NCBI GenBank assembly: GCA_030062745.1
Contig: CP099847.1
Coordinates: forward strand, 2,898,304-2,962,303
Source of the DNA: Capitulum mitella
Lineage: Eukaryota > Arthropoda > Thecostraca > Pollicipedomorpha > Pollicipedidae
Reading direction: 5' to 3'
Length of the DNA stretch: 64,000 bases
The notes under the pieces were generated by a model. That model was not told where the DNA came from and did no database searches. It saw only the letters and a program-made list of their open reading frames with translations. Of the stretch, positions 3,522 to 31,783 are shown piece after piece; the stretch's first letter is position 1, and each line of letters opens with the position of its first letter. Made by a program: the position numbers and the translations under genes.

Positions 3522-3555
<34 letters not shown>

Positions 3556-10698: not shown

Positions 10699-10863
10699 CT
10701 GCCGGCACGACGCGGAACGCGCAGGGCTCCCTCTGGCGGGCCACCTCGTTCTCGGCCCAGCACAGCAGCCGGCCGTAGTCGAGCGCCGTGCGCGGCGTGT
10801 ACCGGCACAGGCTCGACAGGCCCGTGCTCTCCGCGTGCGACTCCGGCACGTCGATCATGTGGC
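10699..10863 (-). CDS. side-like: Sidestep-like receptor exon 11: second half of Ig5
   Basis: Acceptor CGCGCGCAG, preceded by a (TC)n tract that serves as a pyrimidine tract, and donor CGGCAG|GTGAGC; phase 1 at both ends. It encodes about 55 residues with LSSLCRYTPRTALDYGRLLC, where the D-Y-G-x-L-L-C-W-A-x-N string is the F strand with the second Ig cysteine. It ends in REPCAFRVVPAG, the conserved linker into the FnIII domain of Side proteins. Confidence 0.93.
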
Positions 10864-11794
10864 CTGCGCGCGGAGAGAGAGAGAGAGTGAAAACGGCTCG
10901 GCTCATCTTCATCATCAGGGAGCGTGGCATTCGCTGGTGATCTGGATCTGGAGCTATGGAGGACTATGGACATCTGTGGAATCCTGGCGAGGCAAGGTCA
11001 CTTTTATCGCTTAGTATGAGCGATTTGCTGGCGTGATGTTTCGGATCAGAGCACATGCTAAGCAGAGCTTGTTGCACGGGCTCCGAATCCTACACACCCG
11101 ATCGTGCCATTCCAGGTAACGGCTGTTTTGTGGGTAGGTTTAACGTGCCGTCAAACGTATGACCCGACAGCGAGGCAGTCAGCATGCCCTCCTATTTTCT
11201 AGCTTCCAGCTGACCACTGACCTTAGCTATAAAACAATTAAGTAAACATTAAATGAGCACCAAAGAGCTTCATTACGTGCTTGGAGTAATGGGGTACGAA
11301 TGCGGAGCGCGTTTGACTAATGACAAACGCGCTCGACACGTTCATGGCTCCACTTGGCCATATAATGTCAGCAGCGATGACAGTAACGAAGGATCATTAA
11401 CTTTTGCAAGCCTTGTGCGCAGCAGAACAGTACATCGCACACCCTCTTGGGCCAAACGAAATGTCTTGTAGCAATTATGCAACACGATAACTGCACCGTC
11501 AGCATCACCACGAAGAATGTGGAACAGAGTGCGAAAATTAATGGCTTAATTACCGCCGCGGAGCGGTGACATCACCCCTCTAGTGACCTTTTCTTTCCTC
11601 GGAATCCGTTTCGCGTCACCGGGCATGATGCAATTCGTTATTAGAGCGTGCAGGCTTCGCACGTGACGGCCACGCGACCACACGTCCTGCGGAAACGCCG
11701 CAGCTGCGCGCCGGAGCAGGAGGCCCCGCAGGCCTGGAGAGCAGGGTCACTGTGTCCGATCACCAGCGGCCGCACGGGGCGCAGCGCCGCCTAC
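10864..11794. other. Intron between exons 10 and 11
   Basis: 931 bp. It holds copy 1 of a stem-loop repeat at about 11035-11180 and a GC-rich stretch next to exon 10. Confidence 0.6.
11035..11180 (+). repeat. Stem-loop repeat, copy 1
   Basis: It contains TGCTAAGCAGAGCTTGTTGC flanked by partly complementary arms (GGATCAGAGC and GCTCCGAATCC). It is followed by CACCCGATCGTGCCATTCCA and further sequence shared with the copy near 46.3 kb. The family is unknown; it may be part of a SINE or MITE. Confidence 0.6.
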
Positions 11795-11923
11795 CTGACG
11801 CGTTGAACGCCCAGGAGAACCGGAACGGCGGCGGCTCGGCGGTCACGTGGCACCGGACGTAGATGGTCTCGCCGCGGGAGGCGCCGTACTGGGTCACCTG
11901 GTCCGGTGCGCAGCGCGGCGCGT
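11795..11923 (-). CDS. side-like: Sidestep-like receptor exon 10: first half of Ig5
   Basis: Acceptor GCTGCGGCAG and donor GCGTCAG|GTAGGC; phase 1 at both ends. It completes a Tyr codon with exon 9 and encodes YAPRCAPDQVTQYGASRGE, then TIYVRCHVTAEPPPFRFSW. The string Y-A-P-x-C-A, the first Ig cysteine in Y-V-R-C-H-V and the B-to-C strand W match Ig5 of Side proteins. Confidence 0.93.
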
Positions 11924-13557
11924 CTGCCGCAGCGGGTCAGGTCATATCACGGTCACGGCAGCTCAGGCTTCTCAGAGAGGCGCATAATTTCACCCTCCCG
12001 CAGGAGACGGTGTGGGAAGTTGGAAACATCACTACCGCAGCGGTCGGACGCGACATTGATGTCCGAAACATCATAACAATTTATCGGTGAACTGATGGCC
12101 GGATATGTCACAAAATAAGGTAACACAACTTAGCAAACGAAGTGTGATAGCATCGTGCGTGGGATGGGAGCACACTGGCTTTTCATTGCCTGTTAGCCGA
12201 CACACGTAATTGACAAGGTAAATGACCATAATCCTGGATAATCTTACGATTGATTTTCCAGTATTTTGATCTCACATGAAGGCTTCGGTGTCGTGTTTTA
12301 TGTGATTCTAAGATCTCTCAAAACACACACGCTTTAATTCCTGTCATTCACGTGACATACATCCTATATCCTCCCACGTCCTACCTATTTTGGCACGGCT
12401 GCGAAATTAACGCAATTAAATTCGTCGCGTGCAGCAGCCGCTCTGATCTGTTTTCCTGGAAACACGCATTCCGCGGTGCCCGAAGAATCCTGATAAGCCT
12501 CAAACGTGCACTTAGCCGCGCTTCTATTGGAAAACGTCTCAGGCGCTCAGACCACCGAGCTGGCAATCTCAATAGGCCCGTCTGGGACCTGGCCGATTCC
12601 AGAAAGCCGTCAATTCGATCGCGGCTATTTCGGCGCGCGATAACGAGATACAGACGCGGCGCACCGGCGGCGATAAGCGCCATCGCGTCGCAGTCGGGCG
12701 GCGGAGTTCGCCGCGACAGGCGGAGCTGAATATAAGAATCGCCGGCCGGAGGGAGGGGTCGGCGGGGGGACGCTAATAATCCGCTCGATCGATCACGACC
12801 CGCCGGCCCCAGTTGGACCCGGCTCGGGCGAATTAGCCGCCCGCCCGGCCGGCGCTTTCCCGCCTCCGACTGAGCCGTCTCCGGCCGGCGCCGCGCCGCC
12901 TCCGGCGCGCCTGCAAAGGTCAGCCTGATGAGGACCAGGTCTGGAAATGGTCCGCTCTGATGACCGTCCCCGGCGGCCGGCGGCGATCGAGTCGGAAGCG
13001 GACTTCGCTGATTGACCCGGAGACCGTCCCTGGACTAAGAACGTCCCTGATCCCCGTTGCACTTCCCCTTAGGTCCTGCTTCGGCCCTGGCTCATGCATT
13101 TGCAATCCCGGCTTTCTTAGCTCGACGTTTAGCTCATTTTCACGATTCCAGGGCCAAGCTGCATTGTCTTCACTTTCATATGCTAATCTCAGTAGGATCC
13201 ATTTCGTCCAGGCCCGGCTTCACCTCGTGCAATTTTGGTTCTAACCTAAGCCGCAGTGAGGTCCTAATTTCCGTATTCCTCAGGCCAGGCCCAAGACAAT
13301 GTCCCAATCTCCAAATTTATTTTCCCGTTTCAAGCTTCGTCTTCAGCCCCGTCTCCTCGCTACCGTCGCCGACTCCGTCTCCACATTCCTCTTCTTGTCT
13401 CCAGATTCATTCTCAGTTTCTGCCTATATCGTTTTTTTTGTCTTTCACATTCTCCAGTTCCGTTCATCCGGCTCCAGTCCGTCTCCAGCTCCGTCTAAAA
13501 CTTCTTCTCCGGCTTCGTCTCCGTCTCCGGCTCCGCCTCCAGCCCGCCCCCCCCCCC

Positions 13558-13805
13558 CAGGGACGTAGCCAAGGGGCCATGGGGGCCATGCCCCCCCCCC
13601 TGAGCCAAACTGTCTGTACTAGATACATAGCAATTTCGCAGGAATACGTAAGCGATCATATATGTGCTGCAAAAGCAAACATTAATGTTCTCCTATGCGT
13701 TAAATGTGAGGTAAATTGCACAAAATTGCCGTTTTTCCTATAAACTTCGCCATATACCCATAGCATATGACAAAAATTTGACATTTGCCCCCACCCCCGT
13801 CGTTC
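13558..13805 (+). mobile_element. MITE copy 1 (CAGGGACGTAGCC ends)
   Basis: It starts CAGGGACGTAGCCAAGGGG and continues through CCCCTGAGCCAAAC, TTTCGCAGGAATACG and CAAAAATTTGACATTTGCCC. The same order of blocks occurs at 19943-20191. The right terminus is worn here; in the other copy it is GGCTACGTGCCTG, complementary to the left end. No coding capacity. Confidence 0.7.
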
Positions 13806-13914
13806 CAGCTTCTCGGCCTGATTAATGGACTCCCAGTTCTGGTTAAGCTCCGGACTGGGTGGTCCACCCGTCTTTGTGAGGGCCAGAGAGTGTGTCTGCC
13901 GCGCACAGCCCGCT

Positions 13915-14300
13915 TATCGGAATCTGCGCAGAACGTACCTGCTCGACCGAGCCGACAGAACGTACCTCTCAGACCGAGCCGGCAGAACGTACCCCGCCCG
14001 ATCCAGCAGAACGAAACACTGCTCCCCGGCCGATCCGTGGAGAACGCATCCCCCGCCGACCCGGTGGAGCACAACACTGCCCCTCCCGGGCCATCCCGGC
14101 AGAACGTAGCGCTGCCCCCTCCCCCCCCCCAAATAGCGGCCGGCCCAGCAGAACGTAAGCAATGCCCCTTCCCGGCAGACCCCGCAGACCGTAATACTGC
14201 CCACCCCTCCCCCATCCCGGCCAGACCCAGCAGAACATAATACTGTTCCTTCTCGGCCACCCCCGCAGAATGTGACACTGTCCCCCCCCCTCCCCCCACC
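13915..14300. repeat. Minisatellite, unit about 40 bp
   Basis: Imperfect head-to-tail copies of a unit containing CAGCAGAACGTA...ACTGCCCC...CCGGCC. Recurring GCAGAACGTA or GCAGAACATA anchors lie roughly 15-50 bp apart. It lies about 430 bp into the intron after exon 9 and creates the apparent long open frames on both strands here, which are not called as genes. Confidence 0.8.
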
Positions 14301-14730
14301 GGGCCTACCCGGCGTACCCAGGACCAGTCCTGGACAGTCCACTGGCGGGAGAAGAGACAGTGTTGATTTCACTGGCCTCACCGAGTGTCTTCCCGCTGCG
14401 ATCAATCCGAACTTCGTCTTCCCACCGGCTGCAGACTTAGCGGCAACGTCCCCAGGGATTTGGAGTCTTTTCGTTTCCTTAAATTGCAGTGGATAGTCGG
14501 GAAGTGGATGTCAGGATCAAACAAATTGGGACTTTCGGTCGAGTTAAGGTCGAATCAAGCCGAAACGGTTAAGTAGAAGTGCCTATCAAAGACGAGTAAA
14601 ACACGAACAAACAGCAATTACTATCGCAGACGCTGTGCAGGCAGAATATATAGCGTCCAGTCACAAATGATCCTGCCGAGTTCCAGCACTGTATGAGACA
14701 AAGATGAGGCCTCTCTACTTCAGAACTCAC

Positions 14731-14890
14731 AGCGCACGCGCAGACGGACCACGGCACTCTCCCCGGTCCCCTCGGCGTTGAAGGCCGAGCAGGAGTAGTC
14801 GCCCGAGGCGTTCCGAGTCACGTGGTGCAGCACCAGCGTGTCATTGGTCAGCTGGAGGTCACGGCGCGGGTCGCTGACCACCGGAACGCC
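14731..14890 (-). CDS. side-like: Sidestep-like receptor exon 9: second half of Ig4
   Basis: Acceptor CGCCTCTCCAG, phase-0 entry, and donor GCGCT|GTGAGT leaving in phase 1. It encodes 53 residues: GVPVVSDPRRDLQLTNDTL, then VLHHVTRNASGDYSCSAFN with the second Ig cysteine in D-Y-S-C-S-A-x-N, and then ESAVVRLRVR. The L-V-L-x-x-V-T-R-x-x-x-G-D-Y-x-C pattern is a strong Side Ig4 match. Sequons NDT and NAS are present. Confidence 0.94.
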
Positions 14891-16226
14891 CTGGAGAGGC
14901 GGCGACACAGGTCAGGTAACAGCTGAACTACGACTCCCGGCAGCAGATGGTACTAATGAATGCATCACTGTGGTCATCTTCGCTCTGCTCACAACAGGCA
15001 GCACCTGCTATACTACTGACACCGATGCTTGATCCATATTGAGAAAATATACTTCTGGCTACGATTTTCACTCGAGTGTCGTTAATATTTTCGTTTCACT
15101 CGCTCTGTTATCATTCCCTTATGACTATAGTTTCTATTTTTCTAAGCATTTTGTACAGAAGTTTATTTCAAGATCTGACTGACTGACTGATATTGATACA
15201 TCTCCGACTGATATTGAGTTTCAAGGCGTGCCACGACCTACTAGTCATTATGCGCCGCCTACAAAGTCTGTCTGAGCTACGTTACGTTACAGCACATGTG
15301 GTGATTTTAAAGACAGCACAAGTGTTCTAAATAGCATTACAGGAGGAAAGAGTGATGAATACAAGTGATTTTTTGCTTTGAGTTTGTATGTGTGCGAACT
15401 AAATTTAGAAGCCGCCTTTAGCATTGGCATAGTGTCGGGCTTCCGTGAAGAGGAGGCAAGGCACTCAGGGGGAAGAGGAAAGGAGCTGTCGCCTCTTCTA
15501 CTGTCAGTGTTGTTACTTTTAGCCCTACTGAAAAAAATTACGTCACGATTTACGTCGGATTTTGCCAAGCTGCCGACACGTGCACTACTCCTCACGAAGA
15601 GCACCGGAGGATCTTTATCGTGCACGCTAGGAGATCGCCCACACCGCTTCTCACGCTGGCTAAGCATTCAGGCTTTTAAGAAGAACTTGGGGTGTTATGC
15701 TGTGGTTCTGTAGTGTTGTGTAGTGGTGGTGCTTGATCGGTGTTGGTGGCCTGAGCTGGTAGGTTGCGCGGTGTCCATGGCTGTCTCTGTGTACACAGGC
15801 GGAGCCCAGGAAAATGCGCGATTCTGGCCGAGAAGAGCCCAATAAAATGCGCGATTCTGGCCAAATTCCCGTGAGGTAAATTGCCGTCACTGGCTGTGTG
15901 TGTGGTGTAGATGAGAGAGTATTGTAGAGAGAGAGAGAGAGTATGTAGATGAGAGAGAGTGTCGTAATGCGGTGGGAGAGAAGAGGGGAGGGAGACTTGG
16001 GATGTGGTGTGGTTGTGTCTTTCAAGACCTCTCGGCATGACCGGTAAAATTGTTCCGGGTAACTAAAAGCGATTTTTTTTTTTAAAATTTCATCTGCTGA
16101 TTTCAGTTCGCGTAAGTAATCTGATTTCATGACATGCACATGCACATTACACCCGTATCTCCGAGAGGTGATAATTCATTCCCGTTCTGTCACCACCACA
16201 GGTCGCCGCTCGGCGCCTTTACGCAC
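14891..16226. other. Intron between exons 8 and 9
   Basis: 1.3 kb; a GA-rich microsatellite lies at about 15905-15965. A short direct repeat (AAAATGCGCGATTCTGGCC) occurs at 15811-15829 and 15843-15861. No exon seen. Confidence 0.6.
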
Positions 16227-16357
16227 GTTCAGTTTCCAGACGAGTCGGAGGGCGGGTGGGTCGGCCTTGACGATGCACTTCATGTAGACGTCGTGTCCCT
16301 CCCGCACGGGCCGGCCCGGCTCGGAGGACCAGGTCCGGAGACGGACCACGGGAGCAT
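16227..16357 (-). CDS. side-like: Sidestep-like receptor exon 8: first half of Ig4
   Basis: Acceptor TCTGGACCGCCAG, phase-1 entry, and donor CTGAAC|GTGCGT leaving in phase 0. It encodes APVVRLRTWSSEPGRPVRE, then GHDVYMKCIVKADPP and VWKLN. The strings P-V-V-R-L, E-G-x-D-V-Y-x-x-C and A-x-P-P-x-x-x-x-V-W are typical of Ig4 in Side proteins. Confidence 0.95.
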
Positions 16358-16997
16358 CTGGCGGTCCAGACACGACAAGAGACCGGTTACACGAGCCTCG
16401 CGCGCCGGACGCCGCGGACACATGAGCTGAGCGAAACGTGATAAATCGTGGGCCTATCTTCCAGAAATTCCGGGTCTTTCCGTGAACGGGAACGGAAAAC
16501 ATCAGATCACTGCCTGGAGATAATAAGTTAATGCATCGGAAATCTGATTCACACGCCTGAGCTGACTTCGTGATGTCTGAAATGCTATGGCAAATGGGAA
16601 CACGGCTTCCGCATTAGATTCCTTACCTGTTCGCTTTGTTTCCATAATCATGGCAACGTGCAGAAACAACGCAACTTAGAAACGCTGCTACATCAGGTAC
16701 TTGTACCTGACGTAGCAGCGCATGTACCCCATGTACTTGTACCATTTCAGGAGACGGGCTCTGCCTCTTTTCCCGACATCGACAAAATGCCCGGGAAACT
16801 TTCACGGGTCGCGTCGGCGGCCCTCCATCACCAGTGCCACACGCCCACAAGTGTTCTCGCAATCTCAGCGACCCGCACAGAATCTCCTCAAGACCTTCAA
16901 CTCTCCCGGAGGCTCCTCGCACTCCTCCACTGCCGCGGGATGGGGTCCCTCACGGCCCTGACGCCCCACTCTGTCAGGGCCGCCAGCGGGAACTCAC
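16358..16997. other. Intron between exons 7 and 8
   Basis: 640 bp. The block at 16680-16750 contains small inverted/direct repeats of ACTTGTACC and TACATCAGGTA; otherwise nothing. Confidence 0.55.
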
Positions 16998-17142
16998 AGC
17001 GGACGTTGAGCCGCCAGACGTCCTCCAGTGCGGCGCTGAGCAGCGGGTTATGCGCCCGACACCGCACCTGGCGGCCGGCGTCCTGCACCTCCGGCCGCAA
17101 GCTGACCCGCGACGTGGTGACGTTACCATCGTGGCTGCGCAC
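16998..17142 (-). CDS. side-like: Sidestep-like receptor exon 7: second half of Ig3
   Basis: Acceptor GTGCCGTCCGCAG, phase-0 entry, and donor CCGCT|GTGAGT leaving in phase 1. It encodes 48 residues: VRSHDGNVTTSRVSLRPEVQ and DAGRQVRCRAHNPLL, with the second Ig cysteine in V-R-C-R-A-x-N, then W-R-L-N-V. The N-V-T-T-S...D-x-G-x-x-x-x-C-R-A pattern is diagnostic for Side Ig3. Its acceptor lies in a tandem duplication (see the repeat at 17143-17275). Confidence 0.94.
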
Positions 17143-17275
17143 CTGCGGACGGCACCGGGGCCGGTCGTTTGTGCACCCGAAGGCTGGCGGGCTGAGCACA
17201 ATCATACGCACCTGAGGACGGCACCGGGGCCGGTCGTTTGTGCACCCGAAGGGGCGGGCTGAGCACAATTAGCCA
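17143..17275 (-). repeat. Tandem duplication spanning the exon 7 acceptor
   Basis: Two copies of a 65-70 bp unit, each running from ATTGTGCTCAGCCCGCC through CACAAACGACCGGCCCCGG to a CCGTCCNCAG|GTGCG junction. The copy next to the exon is the real acceptor; the upstream copy keeps the same CAG|GTGCG but reads into GTATGATTG instead of exon 7. Confidence 0.9.
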
Positions 17276-17649
17276 GCGACCGTGGCCGCTGGAGGTCGGC
17301 AGAGGATGCGGCAGGGAACTGTGGCTCCAGGGGAGAGCTGAGGGTTGCCTTAAGACCGGGTTCAGGTTTACCGATAGGGCGCCGTTCAGGTTTACCGACA
17401 GACGGCTTTGGGTGGTTACTAAAGCACTAATGCGGTGTGATGAAGCCCAGCACGAAAGGCAAGCCTGGGGTGCTGCTGTTAACGGAGGTCGAGAAGCTGC
17501 TCTACTTTCCAGGCGTGACAGGCGGGAGACGAGACGCGTGGGACGGGAGCGCGCGACGCCCCAGTTCAGGTCTCCGAACGTGACTGACTGGTCGGAGCGC
17601 TGCCCGGCACGGGGTGTCAGACGGCCGCTGCGGTATTACGGACTGGCGG

Positions 17650-17793
17650 CGTGGCCCCTGCCGGTGATAACCTCACGGCGGCGTGACCCCTGCCGGTGAT
17701 AACCTCACGGCGGCGGCGACCCGCGCCGGTGATAACCTCACGGCGGCGGCGACCCCTGCCGGTGATAACCTCACGGCGGCGGCGACCCGCGCC
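17650..17793. repeat. Minisatellite, unit 32-33 bp, about 4.5 copies
   Basis: Head-to-tail units containing CCGGTGATAACCTCACGGCG, alternating between CCCCTGCC and CCCGCGCC variants. Very little divergence, so it is young. It lies about 500 bp upstream of the exon 7 acceptor. Confidence 0.93.
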
Positions 17794-19942
17794 GGTCGGC
17801 CGCCCGGAAATGAAGGCCAAATTAGCAATCGTCTGCAGTATTGCCATATTTGTATCCATTATAAAGCGTATTCGAACGCGAACAAAATCCTGCGCCACGG
17901 GCGCAGATAAGAATGAAGTAGGAATAGCTGGCACTCGAAACAGCAGTGGTGAGCAGTGCGATATTTGCCAATAGGACCATTAACGAGGATTTTTTGTGTG
18001 TAACTGCGAAGGGTTTCACTCGAGTCCCCTTGTCTGGCCATTGCACGCGTTAATGAGTGAATGCCTCCTGTGTGTGTGTGTGCGCGTGGGGGGGGGGGGC
18101 GTATGTGTGTGGGCTGGAGAGTGAGTTGTCCCGATGGGTGCTGTACACGGAATAGTTTGCTATTCAGACCACCATCTTACTGGTTCAGCCACTGGATGGT
18201 CCATCTGACAACAAACTCTGTTTGGTCCTGGTAGGCCTGTCTTATAGGCCGGCTCAACATTAATTTGGCCCAATGACGTTAAGGCCCATCAGCATTTAGT
18301 TTTCCTGGTTAGCCTTAACTCTTAACATATAGGCTTTGGAATCGATAAAATGAGCAATCCTCACGTTGCTTGGCTGAGATTACTTTACGTGCTTTTAATT
18401 AATTCAGTCTGATAACTGGTGATTTTGTGGTAGAATATCCGTGTATTTTGTTTTTGCTTCCTTTCCTCGCAGGGAGTGCCACAGCTTGATATTTGCTCTT
18501 GTTTGCAACCTATTCGTCTGAGAGTTAACGTAAGGTTTTTGTGTCGTGTTGCATTGGAATGATAGCACTCCTGGTCATCTATTCACAGGTGGCGGGTTGA
18601 TAAGAAAAGGAAGAGCCAATCTGTGCAATACTTTGAAGTAGTTTCCCGTCCAAGTTCTCGTCCAGCCTCATCATGAAACACTTGGGAGGAGCTCATCCTG
18701 AGTATGGCTTTGCATTCCTGAGCAAGAGCACCAAATATGTTAATGCCACCAGTAATGTCACTAATGCGTCAGCTTTCCCCAGAAACTGAATCCGAATTAA
18801 GATGGAGTATGATATTACAAAATTCGGTTGAAAGCGAGTTAAGCCACCTGTTAGTAGAAGCGTCCTTGTAGTTTCCAGCGAGTAATCAAGATAGAATATC
18901 GATGGCCAGATTGCTATGCCACTAACCGCTAATTACCTGGTATCGCCTTATTATATCAGGAAACAGCTTAGCAATGAACCAGGCTAAACACCCCATTCTC
19001 CGAAACCAAAGACCGTTTAGCCAGAACGGATGATGATCAGTATCGAGCTGCCAGCTGGGGTCGCCCATATCCCATGGAATAAACGTAAAAATCCCCGTGA
19101 AAAGATGAGGACAGCAAAACAGCATTGCTGTCGCGGATAACGAGGACGGGTTGCCGAAACTTGGAATGTATTTTGATACTGCTGTAGTTCATCAGTATAT
19201 CAAGCGTAAATCACATGAAATGGGTTCAGGCACAAGCGTCTTAATGACATCAATCTGACGACGTTATTCGCCCGACCGCGCAGCGTTGACGGCAGAGGCA
19301 CAACGCCGCTCGATCCGCGCGGGAACCGGCGGCGTCACGAGCTCCAAGCTCCACCGGCACCGACCCCTGGCCCTCGTGACGCTCCAAACAACGGGGTATC
19401 GTATCGCCGGCCGACTCGGCACCGGTGCAAATGTCGCGCGCGAGGACCGTCCCCGGCACCGCCCGGCGCAGATCGACATCTGGAGACGCGGGCCGGACAC
19501 GCGCGGAACCCGTCCTCGGCGGCGGCGGCGGCGCGCCGCGGCCTATCTGGCGCGGCGATCGGCGCCGGTAACCGAGCCGGACCCCGGATGGCGTGCGCTG
19601 AGTCCGCCCCGCCCTCACAAATCAGCCAGCCGGCGGTCCGTCGATGCAATCACCGCCGGGGACCGCCGCAGGCCGGGCGGCCGGCGCGGCGGCGGCCGCG
19701 GTCACGGGGCCCGGGCTCAGGCTCGAACCGAGTCCGGAGCCGCTTTGATCAGGCTAATGTAACAAGATGTGGCGTACGGCTAACCCCGTGCCCTTTGAGG
19801 GACATATTGATTTGACTCAGGCCACGTGGTGACTTCAGACTAATACTAAAACGTGTCATGACTAGAAATATCCCGAAGCACTGTCGCAAGAAAAACACGA
19901 CCAAATCATGACCAACGCGAGTTATTCCTAGCTGTATTTCGC

Positions 19943-20191
19943 CAGGAACATAGCCCACGGGATGGGCCATGGATACCATGGCCCCCCTGAGCCAAGCAGT
20001 CTTCACTACATATTTAGCGACTTCGCAGGAATACGGAATAGTGATCATATATATCCTACAAAAGCAAACATGTTCTGCCTGGGAGTGAAATATGAGGTAA
20101 ACCGCGTAAAACTTGCTTTTCCCAATTAATTAATGTCGATGGCATATCGCAAAATTTGACTTCCCCCGTGGAAATCCTGGCTACGTGCCTG
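19943..20191 (+). mobile_element. MITE copy 2 (about 250 bp)
   Basis: The left end CAGGAACATAGCC and right end GGCTACGTGCCTG are imperfect inverted repeats. The interior matches the copy at 13558-13805 block by block (CCCCTGAGCCAAGC, CTTCGCAGGAATACGGA, CAAAAGCAAACAT, GCAAAATTTGAC). Non-coding. Confidence 0.75.
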
Positions 20192-20261
20192 TAGTTCGCA
20201 AAAAAGGAAACAGGCAACGCTCGGTCTGCTTGGAACGTTGTAAGCAGTGACAACAGTACAT

Positions 20262-20487
20262 GAACTCGTGCCTCGTCGACAGCGGTGCACTGTCATCGTG
20301 CCTCATGCACAGCGGTGAGCTCCTGTCCGTAGCTCGTCCTCAGTGATGAGCTCCTGCCGGCACCTCGTCTACAATGGCGAGCTGCCATCAGTACCTAAAC
20401 ATCAGTGGTGAGCTCCAGTCCGTACCTCGTCTACAGCAAGGGGCTGACTTTCGTACCTCGTCCACAGCGGTGAGCTGCTGACCGTCC
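20262..20487 (-). repeat. 31-bp array derived from the exon 6 splice donor
   Basis: Seven units on the minus strand follow the pattern CAGCTCACCGCTGTGGACGA then G|GTACGAAAGT. The first unit is the 3' end of exon 6 plus its donor. Later units keep GACGAGGTACGG or GACGAGGTGCCG and decay to GGCACGA further into the intron. Spacing is close to 31 bp throughout. Confidence 0.88.
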
Positions 20488-20605
20488 TTCCACCAGCTGA
20501 TGACTGCGGCCGGTCTGGACCCCGCGCTCTGGCAGGTCAGCTGGTATGTCACGCCAGCTGACAGCGGGTTGTTGGAGCCCAGCAGGCGCACGCTTAACGG
20601 ACGCA
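20457..20605 (-). CDS. side-like: Sidestep-like receptor exon 6: first half of Ig3
   Basis: Acceptor TTTTGTCCTGCAG, phase-1 entry, and donor GACGAG|GTACGA leaving in phase 0. It encodes LRPLSVRLLGSNNPLSAG, then TYQLTCQSAGSRPAAVISWW and KDGQQLTAVDE. R-P-L-S-V-R-x-L-G-x-N-x-P-L-S-A-G...C-Q-S-x-G-S-R-P is the most recognisable Side-family signature in the window. The last 20 or so coding bases double as unit one of the adjacent array. Confidence 0.97.
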
Positions 20606-20843
20606 CTGCAGGACAAAATACACAGGGAAAAATCACCGAGCAGAGGCCGAGACAAACCGGCCGTTCGACTGGAAGAAATTAATAAATATCAAGCACATAT
20701 TCAAAAAGGCATCAATGTATTTTTATACCGAGAGTGATCGCGCAATCTTCCTTTTCACCGTTTGTCGAAAAAAGTCTTGCGCATATCAGGAACAAGACCT
20801 CCGCGGCATGTCTAAAGGGAAAATCGCTACAAACAAAACTTAC
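20606..20843. other. Intron between exons 5 and 6
   Basis: 238 bp between Ig2 and Ig3; nothing else seen. Confidence 0.7.
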
Positions 20844-21047
20844 GAAGCATATCGATTGTGACCCCCGTGGATCTGGGTGGCGCCAGTACGTGGTTGCTGG
20901 CCCAGCAGACGTACTCCTGGCCGAGATCTTCGCGCGTCAAGGGGCCGATGGTGACCACATTCTCGACCGAGCCGCCCGGCGTTCGGTGCCACGAGCTGTC
21001 CAGTAGTTCGGCGCCCTGCCACCAGGTGATGTTTGGCGGCGGAGTAC
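20844..21047 (-). CDS. side-like: Sidestep-like receptor exon 5: second half of Ig2
   Basis: Acceptor CCATTGCCTCAG and donor ATGCTTC|GTAAGT; phase 1 at both ends. It encodes 68 residues: GTPPPNITWWQGAELLDSS, then NVVTIGPLTREDLGQEYVCW with the second Ig cysteine, then ASNHVLAPPRSTGVTIDM. The G-x-P-P-P-x-I-T-W-W and L-x-R-x-D-L...Y-x-C-x-A-x-N strings fit Ig2 of Side proteins. One sequon, NIT. Confidence 0.95.
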
Positions 21048-22034
21048 CTGAGGCAATGGGAAACTGAAGCTCGAGGGTCACCGGCCGTCGTCACAATCCT
21101 TTCAAAACGACAACAAGAACCAGATCAGATCCTGCCAACCGGGCGCGGCAGTGTGACATCCTGGAAATCAGTGGAAATACTTCCCGAAAACCAGAACCTC
21201 CAGACAGGGTACACTGGCAGTGATCCCAACGTTCCTCTCAGCACTCTCCTGCACGGAGAAGCTTCCCGAGACGTCCTGCAACGTCCGGCGGTAATCCAAG
21301 GCCGTCCGCCGGCGTCGCAGGCACTTCCGGCGTACATCGCTGGCGCCCGGCTACTCCAGTCGGACGGAAAGAACGGTGCCGGCGGCGGCGGCGGCGACAC
21401 GGAGAGGAGGGAACTGCCGGCACGCGATAGGTCGGCCGGGCATCCGGGCGTGAGAGGATCCTCTTCTCCTCTCTGGCCGGGCGTGAGATGAGATCACTCC
21501 CGGCACTAATGAGGGGAGACCCCTGCTAGCGGGAATGGAAGAGGATCCCTAAGCGCAGGAATCGGAGAGGATCATCCCAAGAGAAAAGAAAGACCTGACG
21601 AGTATGCGCCCCCTTCTTAAAACGATATTGACCTGTTTAATTTAAGAGTGTTTAATTTAAGAGGCGTTAGTCGTCATCTTTCTCGAGAGATGTGTCTCCT
21701 GAATAGTGAGCCCAGTTCTGAGTGGCGTAGCTCCCCTATGAGAACCAGAACCAGACCTACAGCACCAGACGTTCAAAGCGCAGATTCACCTCTTGAGGAA
21801 CAGACTGGTTTCCCCGAGGAGCAGACTCACTTCCTGAAAAGCAAACTCACCTTCTGAAGAAAAGACGCGCCTCCTGAGGAGTAGACTCGTCTCTTAAAAC
21901 GTGGACCCACCTCCTGAGAACTGGACTAACCTCTTGAAAAGAGAGCTCGTCTCCTCTACAGCAGTCTCCCCTCCAGAGGAGCGGTCTCCACTCCTGAGGC
22001 GTGAGTGTTCTCAGTTCCTGAAGAGTGTTCTTAC
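21048..22034. other. Intron between exons 4 and 5
   Basis: 987 bp. About 250 bp next to exon 4 is the donor-derived array; the rest shows no repeat. Confidence 0.65.
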
Positions 22035-22045
22035 CTTCTGATGAC
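21780..22045 (-). repeat. About 20-bp array derived from the exon 4 splice donor
   Basis: On the minus strand, some thirteen imperfect units follow the consensus TCAGGAGGTGAGTCTGCTCC. The first unit, TCAGAAG|GTAAGAACACTC, is the true exon 4 donor. Several others keep donor-like strings, for example TTCAGAAGGTGAGTTTGC and TCAAGAGGTGAATCTGC. The exon 4 reading frame stays open across most of the array and stops with TGA at about 21847. Confidence 0.85.
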
Positions 22046-22148
22046 CGGCAGGTGAGCTGGACCAGCTCGCCCTCCCTGTAGCGACGTCCGGTGAGCCGCT
22101 CCACCACGTGGCCGCCGTCGTCCAGGATCGTCGGCCGCCCGGGAGGTG
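22035..22148 (-). CDS. side-like: Sidestep-like receptor exon 4: first half of Ig2
   Basis: Acceptor ATGTCCGGCAG and donor TCAGAAG|GTAAGA; phase 1 at both ends. It encodes about 38 residues: TPPGRPTILDDGGHVVERL, then YREGELVQLTCRSSEG with the first Ig2 cysteine. P-x-x-P-x-I-L-D and E-G-x-x-x-x-L-T-C are the expected Ig2 entry in Side proteins. The exon's last bases are unit one of the donor array that follows. Confidence 0.92.
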
Positions 22149-24609
22149 CTGCCGGACATACATTACAGCCACGCTCTGAGACATAGCAGGAGGTGCTAAC
22201 AGACTCAGAGCCGCAATCATAGAGCCAGCAGAGGAAGCTGCCTGGTACAGAGCTAAGGAGGGAGGCTGGTCAGAGAGGTTTGAACAAAACTTGGACTCCA
22301 GTCAGGGGCCACAGTCGAGATTTCAGGACACCTGTAATAAACGCGGGACTTTGTTGGTGGGCTGGATTGAACCTGGTGTTGTGTGTCCTGAAATGGAGCA
22401 GCCCAGTCCCATCCTTTGTAGGGTTTGGGCACCGTGGGTTTATGTCTGTGTGTGGTTTGTCTGGGATCGGTTGGTTGGGATAGTCCGAAACGAGGCTGGA
22501 CCTGGAACGGAGCCGACAGGCGAAATACGGAGAACTGTTGACGATCTGCCCGCCATAAACTGTCCAAACCGATCGCTCCGCCGACGAGCCAACAGTTGTA
22601 CGGGCCCGCCTGAACACTCCATCACAAGAAGCCACCCGTTCTTCCGGTCCCATCGGGCCCGATACACGGAACACTCAGAGCCGTCCCGGAGAGTTACTGG
22701 CCCTGCGACCGCCGCTGCGCGAGCCGAACACAGCCGCACTCAAACCCGCCGGCGGCCGTAAATCACGCGCACTTGAACAGCGTCGAAACAACGCGCCGCC
22801 GGCGCGCGGGCGCCGCGCCGGCGACGAGCCGTCCGTCGGCCGGGCGGCGGCGCCGGACCGACGGCAGGAAGCCGCGGGCGGCGGCGGCGGCGCGGCGCTG
22901 AAAGCCGCCCGCATACGAGGCCGTCAGCGGCGCCGTTAAATCGTCCGCTCTCGGCGACCGAATGGCGGCCGTCGCTCGGAGCGGCGTCCGGGGAGCCGCC
23001 GCCGGCGTCGGCACGTGCATTAACGACCGGGCCGTCACGGCGACGGCCGGATCCGTCAGCGCGATGGCCGGATCCCTCGGGCGGGCGGGCGGGCACGGCG
23101 GTTCAGACGGACGGGTCTCTCGAGGTGTTAACGGATCCACCGGTGAGGATGGTCGGGACTGACCGGAAGATGAACGGGAGTCGTCGCACATGACGGCCGC
23201 GTCTGTCGGGAGGATCGGCGTCTTCTGTCATGCAATGACTCAAGTCCGTGGCAAATATGCGAGAATTTATCACGGGGCCCAGCGAGATTCATTACGAATC
23301 TGAGACGTGTCACGGCGTGACGACGCACGGCCCGACTCACCGGGCCTCACACCGGGAGCCGGCTCCCTCACGGCGCTGGGTCGGACGCCGACTCCGTCGC
23401 GGCTGTGCGTAGGATACCGGGTCTGGCTCTCCAGTCGGGCGGATACCGGATCCGACGCGGAGGAGGTTCGAATACCGGGTCGGCCGGGCAGGCGTCACAG
23501 CGGGCGCCGCCGGCCACGTGCTGGCCGCTCGTCACTCAGCTGATCGGCTCGTCCACTGACGGCAGGATACCCAGCCCGGGGGCGGCGGCGGCGGCGGCGG
23601 CGAAAGCGGGGGACCGTGAGAAATGATCGCCGGCAGGCCGGAGCGAATGAACCGGCAGTGTCGGCCGATGGTGCAGGGAGAACGAGTACAGCGCGGGCAG
23701 GTCGGCGTAGGACCGGAAGCCGAGAGGTCCATTGGGTGGCGCCCTACAGTGCAAGTGCAGACTGGACAACGCGAATTGAAAGAATATCGCCTCTCAGTAT
23801 TCAGTTCGCTAAATGTATCACAAAAGTCTGAATTGCGTTCCGCATCATTGCTTTTAAAAGCAACCCAGATGCTCCACAATTCATGATTTTCATTAAATGA
23901 TAGCGAAATTCGAAGCACCACCGCATAACGGTCTTCTGTTCAGTTATCAAAGGAAAGTATACGAGGCCTTAAATCTGGATGTCCCCGGAAAACTATCACT
24001 TACATTCTATTATGGATAGCACTCTAATTCACATTGTGTGGGATTCAGCAGATTCAAGCAGTAAATATCGAAATAGCTCTTTGCTTAATGCTAGAGCCTT
24101 TTGTCGTGAATCCTATATCTAGCGACGTGAATAATCTTTCCACCATTTTAAACCAATATTCTTCAGACGAAAAATTCCAATAAGCCTTCCCACGCACAAC
24201 GTCATCTTGGACCAAAAATATCGAGTGGTGTCATTTGGCAGCTGTTCAATATTTTAAGCTTTTTTAATTTAAGACACCGCACATCAAACAGGACTCGCCG
24301 AATGCCGGAAAACCATCACCATAAACTCCAGGGGCCAGAAAAACTTCACCTCGCGCGGCGTCAGAATTTGCAACTACCGGCCATCGCTGGACCGTCGAGC
24401 TCGCCGCGGTGGCGGCGGCCCTCGCAGCTGAATGGCTGACCCGATGTATGCCGAGGGCAAACACCACCCGGTCGCGCCGCCGGCCGGCGCAGTCGACAGC
24501 GATACGTCGCGACAAACTGGGTCAAGTTTGCCGCTCGGATCGGGCGGAGACTGGAGAGTGGGTCAACGGTGGTCCCCTGACCGTCCCACTGCAGACAAGG
24601 TGACACAGA

Positions 24610-24812
24610 GGTGGACTGGCCAGTGACGGAGTGTCCCCCCTGCTTTATGAGTAGATTGGTCAGCGGCTGTGTGCCTCTGGCAGCAATGAAGTGGACTGGC
24701 AAGCGACTACGTGCCTCCAGCTGTATCGAAACGAACTGGCCAACGAATCAGTGCCTCCGGCTGCTTTAGGAGCGGATTGGCAAACGACTGAGTGCCTTCG
24801 GCAGTGGTGGAG
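24610..24812. repeat. Minisatellite, unit about 40 bp, five copies
   Basis: Units read GACTGGC(C/A)A(G/A)CGACT...GTGCCTCCGGC...GAAGTG with moderate divergence, for example at 24650-24690 and 24690-24730. It lies in the intron between exons 3 and 4, far from either exon. Confidence 0.85.
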
Positions 24813-27800
24813 TGCACTAAGGTAAGTGAAGAAAAAGGCGGTGGATTGGACTGGACGGCGAAGGGAAGTCCTCCCAGCGTTGGAAGAGGCGCCAACAATG
24901 CTCTGGCTATAGCGGTAGGCAGCAATCGGCGAGGTGTTGTTCGCTCTTGGCTCCGGCGGCGGTCTTTCAGAGGTGTCCCTAGCTGCAGTGGTTTGGAGCC
25001 TTTGGTGCACTGCTCCTGGCTCCAGTGGGGCCCTCAGCGCTCTGGCTGCAATTTGGAGCCGTCAACAAACGGCTGCTACCTACGGTGGGGTTGATAGTGA
25101 AACGCCCCTGCCTGCAGTGGTTTGGGACCGTTAGCACGCCGATACTGTGGATCGTACGGTCTTGCACCGACGACGCGCCTTTCAAATATCTGCCTGATCA
25201 GCTCTCGACGGCTTGCTACTGACTGACCGTGGCTCTGACGAGTAACGGGGAATCTGGCTTCGGTTCCGGAGACGGAGCCTGAGAGATGGCTACCCCATCT
25301 AAGGAAGGCAGCAAGCGCGTGACTTACCCACTCCCAGTTCAGGGGGGGGGGGGGTAGTGGCAGTAAATACAATGGTGGTTTTAAGCGATGTCTTTGCCTG
25401 TGGTCGTCTGGAGCCATCAGTGAACTGCTCCTGGTTCTCTCGCCAGCGGCGGCTGGAGGATGTCGGAGCCGTGTGCGGTCCGCGGCAGAGACCCGGCCAG
25501 AGGAGCGCTGTCTGATGACGGGCCAGCCAGGGAGCGGGAGGGGGAGCGGCGCCACTCAATCAGCCATGCCTGGACGAGGACCCGCTCGCGCCCGCGGAAA
25601 TACGCCACGCAAACAGAAGCCGTGCCAAGAACCGCCGCCGGAGCGGAGAGGTATAGCGAATACAGCGAATATCTCGCGATGTGGAAGGAGAAGGCAAACG
25701 GAGGGGGGGGGGGGGGCGGGGACGGCAGGGGCCCGCGGTTCGACAGGGGACGGTCCCTCACCGTGGACACGGCTGACGTTTACGATTTTTCGGCGCGATT
25801 CAAAACGCCCGTCATTAATCACGGGGCCGAGTTATGCGCCAGATTCAAGCCGTTTTCACCCGGCGGCGCCGGACGCCTGCCAAAGTCAGCTGCCTGATAA
25901 ACTCGGCGCTGCCGAGCCGCAGTCGCCCTTTGATGTCCCGAGCAGGGCAGCTATCTGCGCCGGCAGGGGGTCGGCAGAAGGCAGCCGCTGCCGCCGGTCG
26001 GCAGAGTCTTCTGCTCGGTTGAACACGCCAACGGCCCTGAACCGGTGGCTGGCCGCTGCCGGGTTTGACGAGCATTGACGCCGGCTGCGGGAGTGATTCG
26101 AGTAACCCTGAAAGTCTGAGAAACCAAAGTTCTGGCGAGAGAACCCTGTGCCCCGGATTTCCGGGCGCATAATTCAGCGCCGGCAGACGGCAGATCTGAC
26201 GGAGGGACAAAATGCAGACCGCGCCGATACGGGGAACACCGGTGGGCTCCGAATTCCCTGAGAGTGCGCCCAACGAGTGCTGGGAACCTGCAAGGGTTCT
26301 CGATCCTGGAAGGGACATGGGCAGACTGGAGATCATGAACACCAGTCAAACTACGAACCGGAAACCCGTTCATGCATCGAAAGCTGAAATGTTATTTGCC
26401 TGGTAAGTTCTGCTCTCAGGTATTGTCAGTTTTCACACAAATTGTTTGAAATACGCGATGACTAACTAAATGACGGCAACTAGAAAGGCGATGCAGTTAA
26501 GGATGTCATTCAGTTTGTAGCTGACGTGATGAGATCTTATCTCGCCTAACTCTGACAGTGAAAGACCGTGAATCTTTTGCAAAGTACACCGAGTGTCACG
26601 GTTGAGCTTCTGGTGAGATGTATATGTTCAGCTCGTCCCGCCCTCCAAGAACGTACACAGCGCAAACGGCGAAACATTTGCTCTGATTCTCGGTAGCTGT
26701 CATGACCAGTTCCATAGGCGACTACGGATTTGGCCGCACTTTCCGGCAACGTATGGTCGGACTAATTAAGAGAGACCTCCGGTGCAAACGTCACGCGTAG
26801 ACTTCCCCCGCCTTCAAAGCCGCCCGCCGTCCGAGCCATCCATCGTGGAGATGAACAAGTCGTATGCGGGCTGGCGTTCACGCGGCCTGGCCGCGATCAA
26901 ACGACGCTGCCGGCCGCCTCCGCCGCCGCCGCCGCCGGCGTGCGTCCGATTTCGGTGTCGATACCGTCCGACGGGGCCGACGCCCGACGATGCAATTAGT
27001 GGCTCCAGACATCCGGGCCCGGCGGCCGAGGCCGGCGCCGGCGGTCTGCCGTGCCCAGGTCACGAGGTCGGGACAGAGCGGGCCGCCGGCCGACCGCGCC
27101 GGGTCGCGTGCGCCGCCAGGTCACAGGGGTCAGGCGGCAGGTCACCGCGTGTTGAGGTTGGGAAGGCCGCGCGGTCAGGGACCGGCACGTGGTGGGCTGG
27201 GACAGGTTTCCAATGCCGGAAAAGTCGCTGCTGCGGTCAAAAACATCAAGGGACGAGAAGAATTAGCAGCGAAGGCTTAGTTCGGAAAGGTCACAAAACA
27301 TTATCGGAAAATTACTAACGTAAACTTAGAGAAGAGCATTTCGACCGGTGATAATAAGTGCTCTGCGACAGCGTCCCGAAAGAGGTAGCATCCATGCGTT
27401 TCTTCGCACCTTCCACTGCACCCATCTGAAGTCAAAGTTCTGCTCTACCTCTCACCTCTGCCAAAGCAGACGTGCTTTTCTAGTGTGTCCACGAAAATTG
27501 CGTCACTTCAGACACATTCGCATTCTCACGTAACTACCAACGAATCGCGCCATAACGTTCCGAACTTGGCATCACATATTTGTTCTTCAGATCGCCCACA
27601 ACAAGGAAAACCAGAAACACTAAAAAGGAAAACAAAAAGGAAAACTGCGAATAAATTGGAATGGAATGAGGAGGTTAGCAATAGTGAGCAAAACCACCAG
27701 GGGTGCTCTATGCAATTCTACCCCAGTGACCCTTGTGGTCCCACTAACGTTCGCAACATCGAAGGGTTTCTTCGCTTGAACTAAGCTTATCGATACCAAA

Positions 27801-28247
27801 GTTGTCAGACGTAGCACAGTCGACTCAGCTTTTTCATTTGTTTCATGTCTGCGTCTTTCAGCGTTATGCCCAGCAACGAAAATGCTTTGTATAAGAGGCC
27901 GCGATCAGACAAAGACTCGACAAGATACAGGGAGCTGTCGCCAGGAATTCTGAGAAGGTTGCCTAGCTTTACTGATACGTTGTGGTCTGAAGGTGCGTGC
28001 AAGTCGGCATGGTTACCAACAAACAGAAACGTCGTAAACTTGCGCGAGCCATGTTGCCGGTATTTGGAAAAAGTAGAATGCGCACCGGTGTCACTTTCGC
28101 TGCTGGGACATTTATTCAGGTATAAATGAGCTTCGGCTGCTGTGTTCCGTGGAATAAGTCAGAATATCCGGGTAAATGGTGATATCAAGGACATATTAAA
28201 CTGGGAGCTAAATGGCGATCAAACGAGGAATGAAGAAATGCTCATGG

Positions 28248-29400
28248 TTAACCCTACTTCCGTACCCACAACGCTACGACACATTCCCGTACGGTGGGGG
28301 GGGGGGGGCGCTTATTCGGTCCGTCCTGAGATCTCAAGGACTACGCGTTCGATTTGATCGCAAAAAAACGGCAATCAGTTTGCCATGGCATGATCTATAT
28401 CTTCATGAAAGGTGCTTTGAAAATATTGCAAGAGACTGTTGCAGGGGTACAAAAAGTAAAAAAATTGATTGTTTTTTTTTTTTACTTGCTCTAAGACCGA
28501 TGCTTATAAACCGATTCTGATGCAACTGGCATCAATTGAGTGCCAACTGATAAAACTTTTCCCTTTGGCCCATGTGTTGAAAGTTTAAGAAAAGTCATAT
28601 GCGTCCACAAGGCTCGCAAAATTGCACAAATATTTCTATGGAACTGAACTTGTATAAAAGTTTATTCTGTAACTCTAAATGGTCATTTAGTACAGAAGAA
28701 GTACAAGTCATATGAGCATGGAAAAGAGGAAACTGTCATGGCTGTTGTTCTGTTCATCAGTTGTTGCATGTTCATCAGGTCGAGCCATGACCTCTAACCT
28801 CAAACGACCTCAGAAGATCCTAAAAACCCATGTAATTATCTTGAGTTCATTCCATAGTGCTCATAAACGATTCCAGTAATTTGAATTGACTATGTTTTAA
28901 AAGACATCGCTTATGAGCGTCGTGATATAGGATAAGTGCGTGGTTATTGTAGGTCATAGCTCAGTGGCCCGACACGACAGTGACCTTTTACTTAAAACAA
29001 GAGGATACTGTGCTGAGTTACATGTTCCGGATTTTTGTAATTTAAACAAATTGGCGTGAAACTATTTACAAAAGACCACTTTCTTACTTTTGACCTTGAC
29101 CCGGTTCAATAAAGTGACCTCAGATCAAAAACAGTTGCATAATAACAGGTTCAAGAAGCTCAAATTCTACAAAAACTTTTTCATGTACCATTTTTCTTTT
29201 ACATTCAACAGTGCCAAAAAAATGACCGGAGGTGCCTCCTAAAAACTTGGCCTGGCTCAGCACCTGGGCAAAATAAAATTGTAAAAATTAGGCATCGTAG
29301 AAACAATAGATGGAAGACGTGAGGCTGCTTAAAAAATCGGAAATGGCGAGAAGAAAACCGGAGGGAGCTTCTGACCTCCACCCATACCGAACAGAGTTAA
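28248..29400 (-). mobile_element. TTAA-bounded element, copy 2a
   Basis: Left end TTAACCCTACTTCCGTACCC and right end ...CCATACCGAACAGAGTTAA. Its interior matches copy 1 in reverse order: CTGAGATCTCAAGGAC near the left end, TGACCTCTAACCTCAAACGA centrally, and CCTGGCTCAGCACCTGGGCA near the right end. No open frame with transposase features. It shares its right TTAA with the next element. Confidence 0.72.
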
Positions 29401-31783
29401 CACTTTTCCGTATGGGGGTCCAGAAGCCCCCTCCGGTTTTCTGCTCGCCAAGTTGAGAGTTTTTCGAGCAGCGTCATGGAACTTGGTGACTAATCCTACC
29501 TATCCTTCCTTTGCATTATGCCAAATTTTCAATATTTTATTTTGTTCAAGGGAAGAGCCAAGGCACATTTTCGGTAGGCATCTTAGACCGTTTTTGGCAC
29601 TGCTGAAGATACAGAAATGGCTGCCAAAAATATTTTTTTTGATAGAACTTATACCATGGCATGAATGTATGAGAACATCATTCGGCAAACACGTAACAGT
29701 ATTTTTCCTGATCTGAAGTCCCTTCACAAGGTCGCGTCAAGATCAAAAGCCAAAATTTGGTTTTATATCAATGCTTCTGACCCCTACTTTGAAGTTGCAC
29801 TATCTGCAACATCTACCAAGCAGCATGATCTCCTTTATTTGTGTTTTAAGTTTCAGCTTTCATGACACGTTTTTGGGAAGCATCTCGGGCCGTTTTTAAC
29901 ACTGCTGAAGGTAACAGATGGCCGCTAAAACCAGAGTTTTGTTTACGTAGAACTTACACTTTTGTATAAATGTATGGGAAGATCACCAGGTAAACACACA
30001 TAAATATTTCTGCTGATCTGATGTCACCTCACAAGGTCAGGTCAGGGTCAAACGTCAACATTTGGTTTGATGTGGATCTTTTTGACTCTGTCAGTTGGCA
30101 TAATATGCTCTAATTGTGTTTTAAGTTCCAGGTTAAGATCAGGTTGGGTTATGGAGCTATGGTCTAAAACGTCGTCGCGCATATCCTGTATCATGACGGC
30201 CATAAGTAGGGCTTTAAAGATAAAGTCAGTCAAATGATTGCAAGCGTTTTCAGACACTACGAAATGAACTCAAAATAATTTCACTGGGATCTGAGGTCAT
30301 TTGAGGTCATTTAAGCCTAAATGTCCTGAGATGACCTGATGAACATGCGGCCATGACAGCTCCCCTTTTTGACGTCCCTGGCGCCGCCTATGCCAACATA
30401 ATACAAACAGTTCAAAACGATTTGTACTCTGGAAGGGAGTGGAGTCATCCCCCACAGTCTCAGCAAATGTAAATGCTAGAAACATCACAATTACAGGCAG
30501 AATGGGGACTATAAGCAGATCTCTTGTGTGTAAATTTGTTGGACCTTAGGCCATTTTTATGGGAGTCAGATTAGGTCAAACGTGTTAACTTTTATGAATT
30601 TTCCTTTTGCGACGGTTTCTCTAAATATTCATGTTTCAAGGGAGATATAATACAATAATACATTACAGAGGTGGCAGACACAATTAACCATAAAAAACAA
30701 AGGATAAAGTTTTTGACCACAGGTCACGCATGTATGAAACTAGTTGTATGACATATTTCATGAAAGCGGTTCATTGGGAATGGTTTTTGGATGAATCGTA
30801 AAGTAACAGTTCTATTTCATCACTATCTGAACGCAGTTTGGCAAATACAGTGCAAACGGAAGTCTCTTTGGATTCAGCTGGAATGTGAAGTCATCTTAGG
30901 TCATCGGGCATTTTCAGTGTCGTGACATGTTTCGACTATGAGCGTCACTTTGTTACAATGTATTGTCAAAAACAAAAACAGGCGAAAGGTTGAGCTGGAT
31001 TTCACTCGGTGGCCTAGCATGATCTTGACCCAGATTGACCTAAGTGACCTTGCATGACCCCTATATTTACATTCATACCATTATATACACCATAGGCAGC
31101 CATCGCTATGATCATGAGGGCAGCACTTGGAAATATTCCCAGTACGCCTCACCGTCGGTCTGAACGCGTTATTCTGCCCGACAGTTTTTACTTTATAGGT
31201 CAATACCTTCAAAAAAATTTCGGCCGATGTTTTTTAACAGTGTGCTATTTATTTAATGGAAGCTAGACAAAAAAAAACAGTCTGTAGGTGTTTTCTTTGA
31301 AATTTAACAGAAAACCGGAAGGAAGGGTGAATTTCGTGCCCCTTTCAGGCCGCGTGTTAAGTATGAAAAGACTAGCTGAAGTTCCACAGACATTATTAGC
31401 TTTAATGTTAATTCATTTTCCAAAAAACGTTTTTCCCGTCCTCCAAGCCCTGCGAACGCCTATGAATTCTTCCAAAATTTAAAACGCATGGCCCAGTTGG
31501 AAAAGTCCCATCGATTACCCCTTGCATCAAAACCGACCCATAAACAGCGGAGCTATAACAAGAGAAAAACTATCTCTTGCTGACTCTTTTGCGCCCCCTG
31601 CCCCTTTAAAAATGCTCAAAACTTCTCCTCAAAATTGCAGTTGACGTAATGGCAAATCGATTTGCGTTTGACGTGATGAAATCGGCCGGGCAATTCTCGA
31701 GATCTTAGGGGTGGCGTGGAAAAATAAGTCCTTTGACTATAAGGAAATGTGTCCTAACGTAATAAGTAGGGGCTTAGGGTTAA
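29397..31783 (+). mobile_element. TTAA-bounded element, copy 2b, with an internal duplication
   Basis: It starts TTAACACTTTTCCGTATGGG and ends GGGGCTTAGGGTTAA. It is in opposite orientation to copy 2a, and the two ends form an inverted repeat around the shared TTAA (29345-29386 against 29411-29449). A 5' segment occurs twice (TTTTTGGCACTGCTGAAG at about 29595; TTTTTAACACTGCTGAAG at about 29893). Non-coding. Confidence 0.7.

Follow-up and report, generated by a model that had tools for sequence, protein, structure and literature searches.

A minisatellite-like array spanning the exon 4 donor of a sidestep-like gene in the barnacle Capitulum mitella, with similar arrays at other exon-intron borders

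The end of exon 4 of a sidestep-like gene of Capitulum mitella and the adjoining splice donor belong to a degenerate tandem array that runs into intron 4. Similar arrays lie over other donors and acceptors, in the same gene and elsewhere in the genome. These arrays are probably neutral minisatellites, each founded on a splice border and tolerated since the exon-proximal site is the one used.

Results

Host gene

The window, i.e., the whole stretch of 64,000 nucleotides that was analysed, corresponds to C9:2898304-2962303 within a genome of 477 Mb (16 contigs); positions below are those of the window unless a locus is named. The gene is on the minus strand, and the splice-site joined frame gives 18 coding exons, 871 residues and GT-AG limits for 17/17 introns (Table 1). 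In the 871-aa protein Pfam recognises a V-set domain and four Ig_3 stretches, while a fibronectin type III match (23.1 bits) is under the Pfam cut-off of 25. A hydrophobic stretch, which by eye would be transmembrane, starts at residue 660 and is followed by a tail. The closest proteins are from barnacles (Pollicipes, Amphibalanus), and the database names of the relatives include nephrin-like, hemicentin-like and sidestep; «sidestep-like» is the label chosen in this analysis for this immunoglobulin-superfamily gene. Exon 4 is supported both by homology (tblastn with barnacle relatives) and by the splice-site joined frame.

Table 1. Features of the sidestep-like gene, in window positions (/ marks a splice border).
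Feature	Positions	Strand	Description	Evidence
Whole gene	2091..63098	-	18 coding exons, 871 aa	homology, joined frame, Pfam
Exon 4	22035..22148	-	first part of Ig domain; AG acceptor, GT donor	tblastn, joined frame
Exon 4 donor-spanning array	21777..22041	-	13 units of ~20 nt, consensus TCAGGAGGTGAGTCTGCTCC	TRF, hand alignment, lag identity
Authentic exon 4 donor GT	22033..22034	-	U1 pairing -9.5 kcal/mol	joined frame, U1 pairing
Copy 7 GT	21909..21910	-	GAG/GTGGGT, U1 -10.0; predicted +124 nt, frame shifted	U1 pairing
Copy 10 GT	21849..21850	-	AAG/GTGAGT, U1 -10.7; predicted +184 nt, frame shifted	U1 pairing
Exon 6	20457..20605	-		tblastn, joined frame
Exon 6 donor-spanning array	20262..20477	-	7 units, 31-nt steps (last step 30)	hand units; TRF 20267-20503
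Exon 7 acceptor-spanning duplication	17138..17269	-	69-bp unit x 1.9, 95% matches; exon starts at 17142	TRF

The exon 4 donor array

Exon 4 ends as TCAGAAG/GTAAGA (donor GTAAGAACACTC), with 22035 as its last base on the minus strand. The first unit of the array consists of the last 7 nt of the exon plus its donor, the border being placed between unit positions 7 and 8. Eleven units are 20 nt long, one 24 nt and one 21 nt (edges set by hand). TRF with permissive weights reports 21776-22044 (period 20, 13.2 copies, score 174), and with default weights only fragments. Identity at lag 20 is 0.551 vs. 0.249 +/- 0.030 in dinucleotide shuffles, and 0/2000 shuffles reach the observed value; chance periodicity is ruled out. 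The run of about 20-bp units which the earlier note had described from this donor onwards is thus confirmed, with the periodicity on which its reading depended, and the consensus that it proposed fits, save for the last column, which is T in 7/11 units. A higher-order unit of 60 bp, hinted at by TRF, brings no gain (identity 0.454 at lag 60 vs. 0.551 at lag 20) and was rejected.

The copies are ~60% alike (mean identity about 0.6), with little gradient with spacing, and for these reasons the array is likely to be old, without recent homogenisation. Across the eleven units of 20 nt, counting the one at the exon itself, the commonest base occupies 67/77 cells of the seven exon-derived columns and 99/143 cells of the thirteen intron-derived columns. 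Neutral decay does not explain by itself why the exon-derived columns are better kept, and this counts against the explanation preferred here.

The 20-nt consensus has 62 matches with at most 3 mismatches in the 477 Mb, vs. 18 for a reversed-pattern control. Of these 62, 18 share the identical sequence TCAGGAGGTCTGTCTTCTCC, a variant that presumably represents a separate dispersed repeat. Seven other matching loci were cut out, none of which (0/7) has an array (score >=60) covering the match; a dispersed repeat as the origin of the 20-nt unit was rejected.

Other arrays of the gene

The donor of exon 6 is spanned by a second array, whose unit includes 21 nt of exon 6 coding sequence. Its first four units keep GT (4/7 including the authentic one, i.e., 3/6 copies), with nearly equal U1 pairing (-5.4 to -5.9). 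That this array differs from that of exon 4 had been claimed before and holds: judging by the different unit, it is independent of the exon 4 array. In exon 7 the acceptor itself is duplicated. The acceptor of the exon is the downstream, exon-adjoining copy, and the upstream copy also retains CAG/GTGCG.

Three further repeats of the window were noticed: (i) a long degenerate array in intron 9 (13922-14313), two units of which read AGGTACGT on the minus strand, a good donor motif, and beside which no exon was recognised; (ii) a ~1.2-kb element in intron 11 (8379-9594) with terminal inverted repeats TTAACCCTATTCCCGG...CCGGGAATAGGGTTAA, resembling a TTAA-type transposon or MITE; (iii) a perfect 41-bp inverted repeat around an AT-rich core (1-204), possibly a small palindromic element.

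Comparison with paralogs and barnacle relatives

Where exon 4 now has A, 11/12 intronic units have G. The consensus codon is then GGA (Gly), and Gly occupies this residue in 7/10 aligned barnacle relatives (N, D and D in the others; ten aligned from 12 barnacle entries) and in both close paralogs, A and B. Since the units carry the G/Gly of relatives and paralogs, the array looks founded on an older exon end, which, on the evidence of this one site, the copies seem to preserve.

In P0001 (Pollicipes LOC119099657, the highest-identity Pollicipes protein), TVISECLAVIRECLAVIS is found at the end of exon 3, where residues ~130-155 of the predicted protein read ECLAVIRECLAVIS; the first exons are present twice. 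This looks like a 21-bp donor-spanning border repeat read through by the gene model. P0012 (Amphibalanus LOC122365524) has >50 extra residues at the exon 3/4 junction, including DTGAEYSVLP, which we take to be akin to a retroelement aspartic protease that the gene model has incorporated.

Borders elsewhere in the genome

A total of 134 borders was placed, 34 in the window and 100 outside (53 acceptors and 47 donors). The outside borders come from all 27 non-window stretches, two paralog regions and six of 20 kinesin stretches, the latter 20 chosen for compactness among 129 matches, and were set by hand from the ends of tblastn or profile matches. The sample represents two gene families, and borders of one gene or of close paralogs are not independent. 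As placed, 3/134 borders are off GT/GC or AG (two by one base; acceptor 6 of paralog B is approximate). The following were dropped as unplaceable: donor 7 of A and of B, donor 11 of L033, the acceptors of L035 and L045, donor 12 of L049, the donors of L050, L054 and L058, the last donors of L063 and L065, and the first acceptor and last donor of L064; secondary matches of L046 and L047 were dropped too. Among the dropped rows, L045 (arrays of score 69-97 near the acceptor) and L049 (score 65) might be extra hits.

Pairwise ungapped self-similarity, tried first, misses degenerate multi-copy arrays, and for that reason TRF was adopted with weights 2,3,5, period >=8 and score >=80. The exon 4 donor scores only 9.5 in ungapped self-similarity with the stricter penalty. 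With the looser penalty 3/21 borders are in the top 1.3%; with the stricter one 2/34 pass thresholds 15 to 25 (rotation P 0.06-0.40) and 1/34 passes 30 (P 0.15). The outcome of this measure is dependent on the score used.

With the TRF criterion, 8/134 borders are inside arrays: three in the window and 5/100 outside. The count is 6/134 when >=4 copies and a score >=100 are required, and 10/134 at score >=60, the additions being the exon 17 acceptor of the window and acceptor 1968 of L065 (score 79). The five outside hits are the exon 3 and exon 4 acceptors of paralog A, the L041 acceptor, the exon 3 donor of L056 and the L063 donor. Both kinds of border are thus represented, donors (exons 4 and 6, L056, L063) as well as acceptors (exon 7, A exon 3, A exon 4, L041).

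The L041 acceptor, that of a sidestep-family exon, lies inside eight 51-bp copies that are 94% alike (43-452 of the locus, G000:C9), and the array looks young. The exon 4 acceptor array of paralog A (L031, reverse-complemented, 3296-3493) has 53-bp units in which, by eye, ~40 nt resembling the beginning of the exon are accompanied by a T-rich tract and TTTTAG. At the L056 exon 3 donor the unit is 29 bp, in about 11 copies; GT is present in 3/11 including the authentic one. In the kinesin gene of L063 (G000:C3, reverse-complemented, 2207-2546) the exon ends as CATACCGTACAG/GTCAGT and about nine copies of a 38-bp unit extend into the intron; GT is present in 7/9 including the authentic one, which was counted against a neutral explanation. 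The similar kinesin exon of L064 has no array at score >=60.

Border rate and genome background

Arrays cover 6.0% of the window and 6.6% of 20 random 10-kb stretches (range 0.8-29%), vs. 0.00% and 0.04% in shuffles. The genome is rich in degenerate minisatellites. The rate at the 100 outside borders has to be read against this background. The recurrence of arrays in one gene had suggested, in the earlier note, a process acting at exon-intron borders. In such a process, transcription- or U1-linked breaks, or border motifs serving as seeds of slippage, would favour arrays at borders. Recurrence is real, since three separate borders of one gene and five of the outside borders are affected; an action specific to borders was not demonstrated, and a process of this kind is considered unlikely.

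The earlier note had proposed a scan of all donors of the genome; for the borders placed here the rate is no higher than the ~6.6% background: border minus genome coverage is -0.016 (95% interval -0.067 to 0.039, window left out). In the window 4/34 borders are in arrays vs. 1.96 expected by rotation (P = 0.15; 0.27-0.34 with other thresholds), and free placement of the arrays gives P = 0.16-0.26; it must be noted that these overlap tests count as a hit the exon 17 acceptor, whose array is largely coding (114 coding bases). When the null limits the overlap of arrays with coding sequence to 30 or 50 nt, P falls to 0.0007-0.03, a result in favour of a border-directed process at first sight. What it says is that exon ends tolerate arrays, with no sign that they attract them.

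The coverage profile around borders (score >=80) rises from 0.9% at 41-60 nt inside exons to 3.7% at 11-20 nt and 6.0% at the border. In introns it is 11-12% at 11-50 nt, 10.5% at 51-100, 6.8% at 101-200 and 5.4% at 201-350. At threshold 60 exon interiors have 10-12%; the depletion of exons is confined to the stronger arrays. For the 100 outside borders, the first 100 intron bases have 10.6% vs. 5.5% at 151-350 (paired bootstrap P = 0.016, with borders taken as independent; 0.026 for donors and 0.10 for acceptors). A process blind to position would not predict this excess at intron edges, which favours a border-directed process and counts against the preferred explanation. Truncation accounts for only a small part of it: random DNA cut into 1050-bp pieces has 6.2% in the near zone and 5.9% in the far one. 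However, against the genome background the excess is 0.040 (interval -0.029 to 0.116, whole sequences resampled), i.e., not significant. The data do not demonstrate a hot spot at borders, and with intervals this wide they are compatible with a moderate excess. The wider proposal, that splice borders seed minisatellites through transcription- or spliceosome-linked duplication and that arrays of the exon-plus-donor or acceptor-plus-exon type lie on several per cent of borders genome-wide, is likewise held to be doubtful; if true, the genome would contain thousands of natural decoy-splice-site experiments.

Splice signals and reading frame in the copies

GT is kept at 6/13 donor positions of the exon 4 array, the authentic one included. 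The five GT-bearing copies (GTTAGT, GTGGGT, GTGAGT twice and GTGAAT) bear out the former count of at least four copies with donor-type sites. U1 pairing of copies 7 and 10 (-10.0 and -10.7 kcal/mol) is stronger than that of the authentic donor (-9.5), and copies 6, 11 and 13 have -6.8, -5.7 and -7.0. By this measure strength alone fails to single out the authentic exon 4 donor.

These five sites, two of them no weaker than the authentic donor in U1 pairing, agree with the possibility that the copies are functional decoys, which would bind U1 and tune the splicing or the retention of the intron. The retention of GT in 6/8 copies of L063 and in 3/6 of exon 6 points in the same direction, as does a human parallel, the intronic VNTR of ABCA7, to which the title of a paper attributes an effect on splicing. 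On the contrary, GT is lost in 7/12 copies of exon 4 and in 8/10 of L056, and the GT columns of the eleven 20-nt units (14/22) are kept no better than the intron-derived columns overall. Functional decoys are judged very unlikely.

It is highly improbable that the copies serve as alternative donors adding array-coded residues to the Ig domain. The exon 4 frame does stay open for 62 codons, up to a TGA in unit 10, as had been remarked before. However, this openness is not significant, since 11% of the shuffled sequences and 14% of the permutations of unit order do equally well, and it was rejected as a sign of coding. Use of the GT copies is predicted to add 104, 124, 184, 204 or 245 nt: four of these would disrupt the frame, and the fifth (204), although in frame, would run into a stop, so that no exon 4 copy is expected to give a productive message (0/5 GT-bearing copies both frame-preserving and stop-free). 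In exon 6 the in-frame GT copy (+93) sits behind a stop. Moreover, no insertion is found in the proteins of the barnacle relatives, either at junction 4 (0/10) or at junction 6 (0/9, P0001 ending there).

Finally, although the copies contain AG/GT, the array can hardly be a remnant of intron birth or sliding by AG/GT tandem duplication (Rogers model): introns 4 and 6 have the same positions in paralogs A and B, so these introns would predate the array unless both paralogs had it.

Discussion

Neutral minisatellites founded on splice borders thus remain the preferred explanation. A segment reaching from the last bases of exon 4 across its donor would have been duplicated in tandem, by slippage or unequal exchange as general knowledge suggests, then expanded into a minisatellite and decayed. 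Splicing would take the exon-proximal donor, a use suggested by the conserved protein junctions and by published parallels; further copies would be intronic, and the duplication would be tolerated because the protein is unaltered. At acceptors the mirror rule would apply, the exon-proximal, i.e., most downstream, copy being the exon border. Such arrays would recur because minisatellites abound in the genome and are not kept out of the outermost exon bases. With minisatellites over ~6% of the genome, arrays are expected at some per cent of borders, and a border-seeking process need not be invoked to explain why a single gene has two donor arrays and an acceptor duplication.

The nearest known systems are the «mirages» of amphioxus, described in two papers as minisatellite-like tandem duplications of exon-intron borders in Adh3, globins, troponin C and PGBD5, with splicing said to stay normal (PMC3087553, PMC3902484). 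Like the barnacle arrays, mirages as presented there have units of minisatellite length over the border, with exon and intron sequence, in several genes; splice signals are found in many but not all copies, and both donors and acceptors are affected. Mirages are further characterised by somatic instability and by copy numbers that vary among alleles (PMC3087553). The barnacle arrays match them in anatomy and are known here from the genome sequence of one assembly. They differ in lineage (cephalochordate vs. barnacle) and in decay, since the exon 4 copies have an identity of about 0.6 whereas BflGb6 mirage units are given as 81-100% alike (PMC3087553). We take the two to be convergent, not related by descent.

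In the 37-bp repeats of human F7 intron 7, the most upstream donor is reported to be the sole one in use in the normal condition, by oriented scanning (PMC6627357). As in exon 4, this donor lies in the first of several homologous repeats. Donors of near-equal U1 pairing are seen at exon 4, at exon 6 and in donor arrays outside the window. However, the F7 repeats are described there as highly homologous and variable in number, while the exon 4 copies are diverged and under half of them retain GT; the first donor is reported to be used in F7, and its use at exon 4 is deduced. In human genes of segmental duplications, variable internal tandem repeats (minisatellites) occur at exon-intron boundaries; they are reported to change gene structure and at times to form new introns (PMC2812944), whereas the barnacle intron would predate its array. 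Intron gain of the Rogers type shares with the present arrays tandem copies with AG/GT, but introns 4 and 6 are common to the paralogs and no gain is seen. Ordinary minisatellites of the barnacle genome have similar unit sizes and degeneracy; the border arrays differ in overlapping a splice border and some coding bases.

The exon 4 array looks like a recurrent minisatellite of a type that has been described before, and not like a device specialised for splicing. A limited search of the barnacle literature found no earlier description of border arrays. The present data add a crustacean lineage, two unrelated gene families (sidestep-like and kinesin) and a first rough rate. An excess at borders, should a full scan show one, would point to a duplication process linked with splicing or transcription. 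Each array also provides a natural experiment on how the spliceosome chooses among near-equal donors and on the amount of duplication that exon ends can tolerate.
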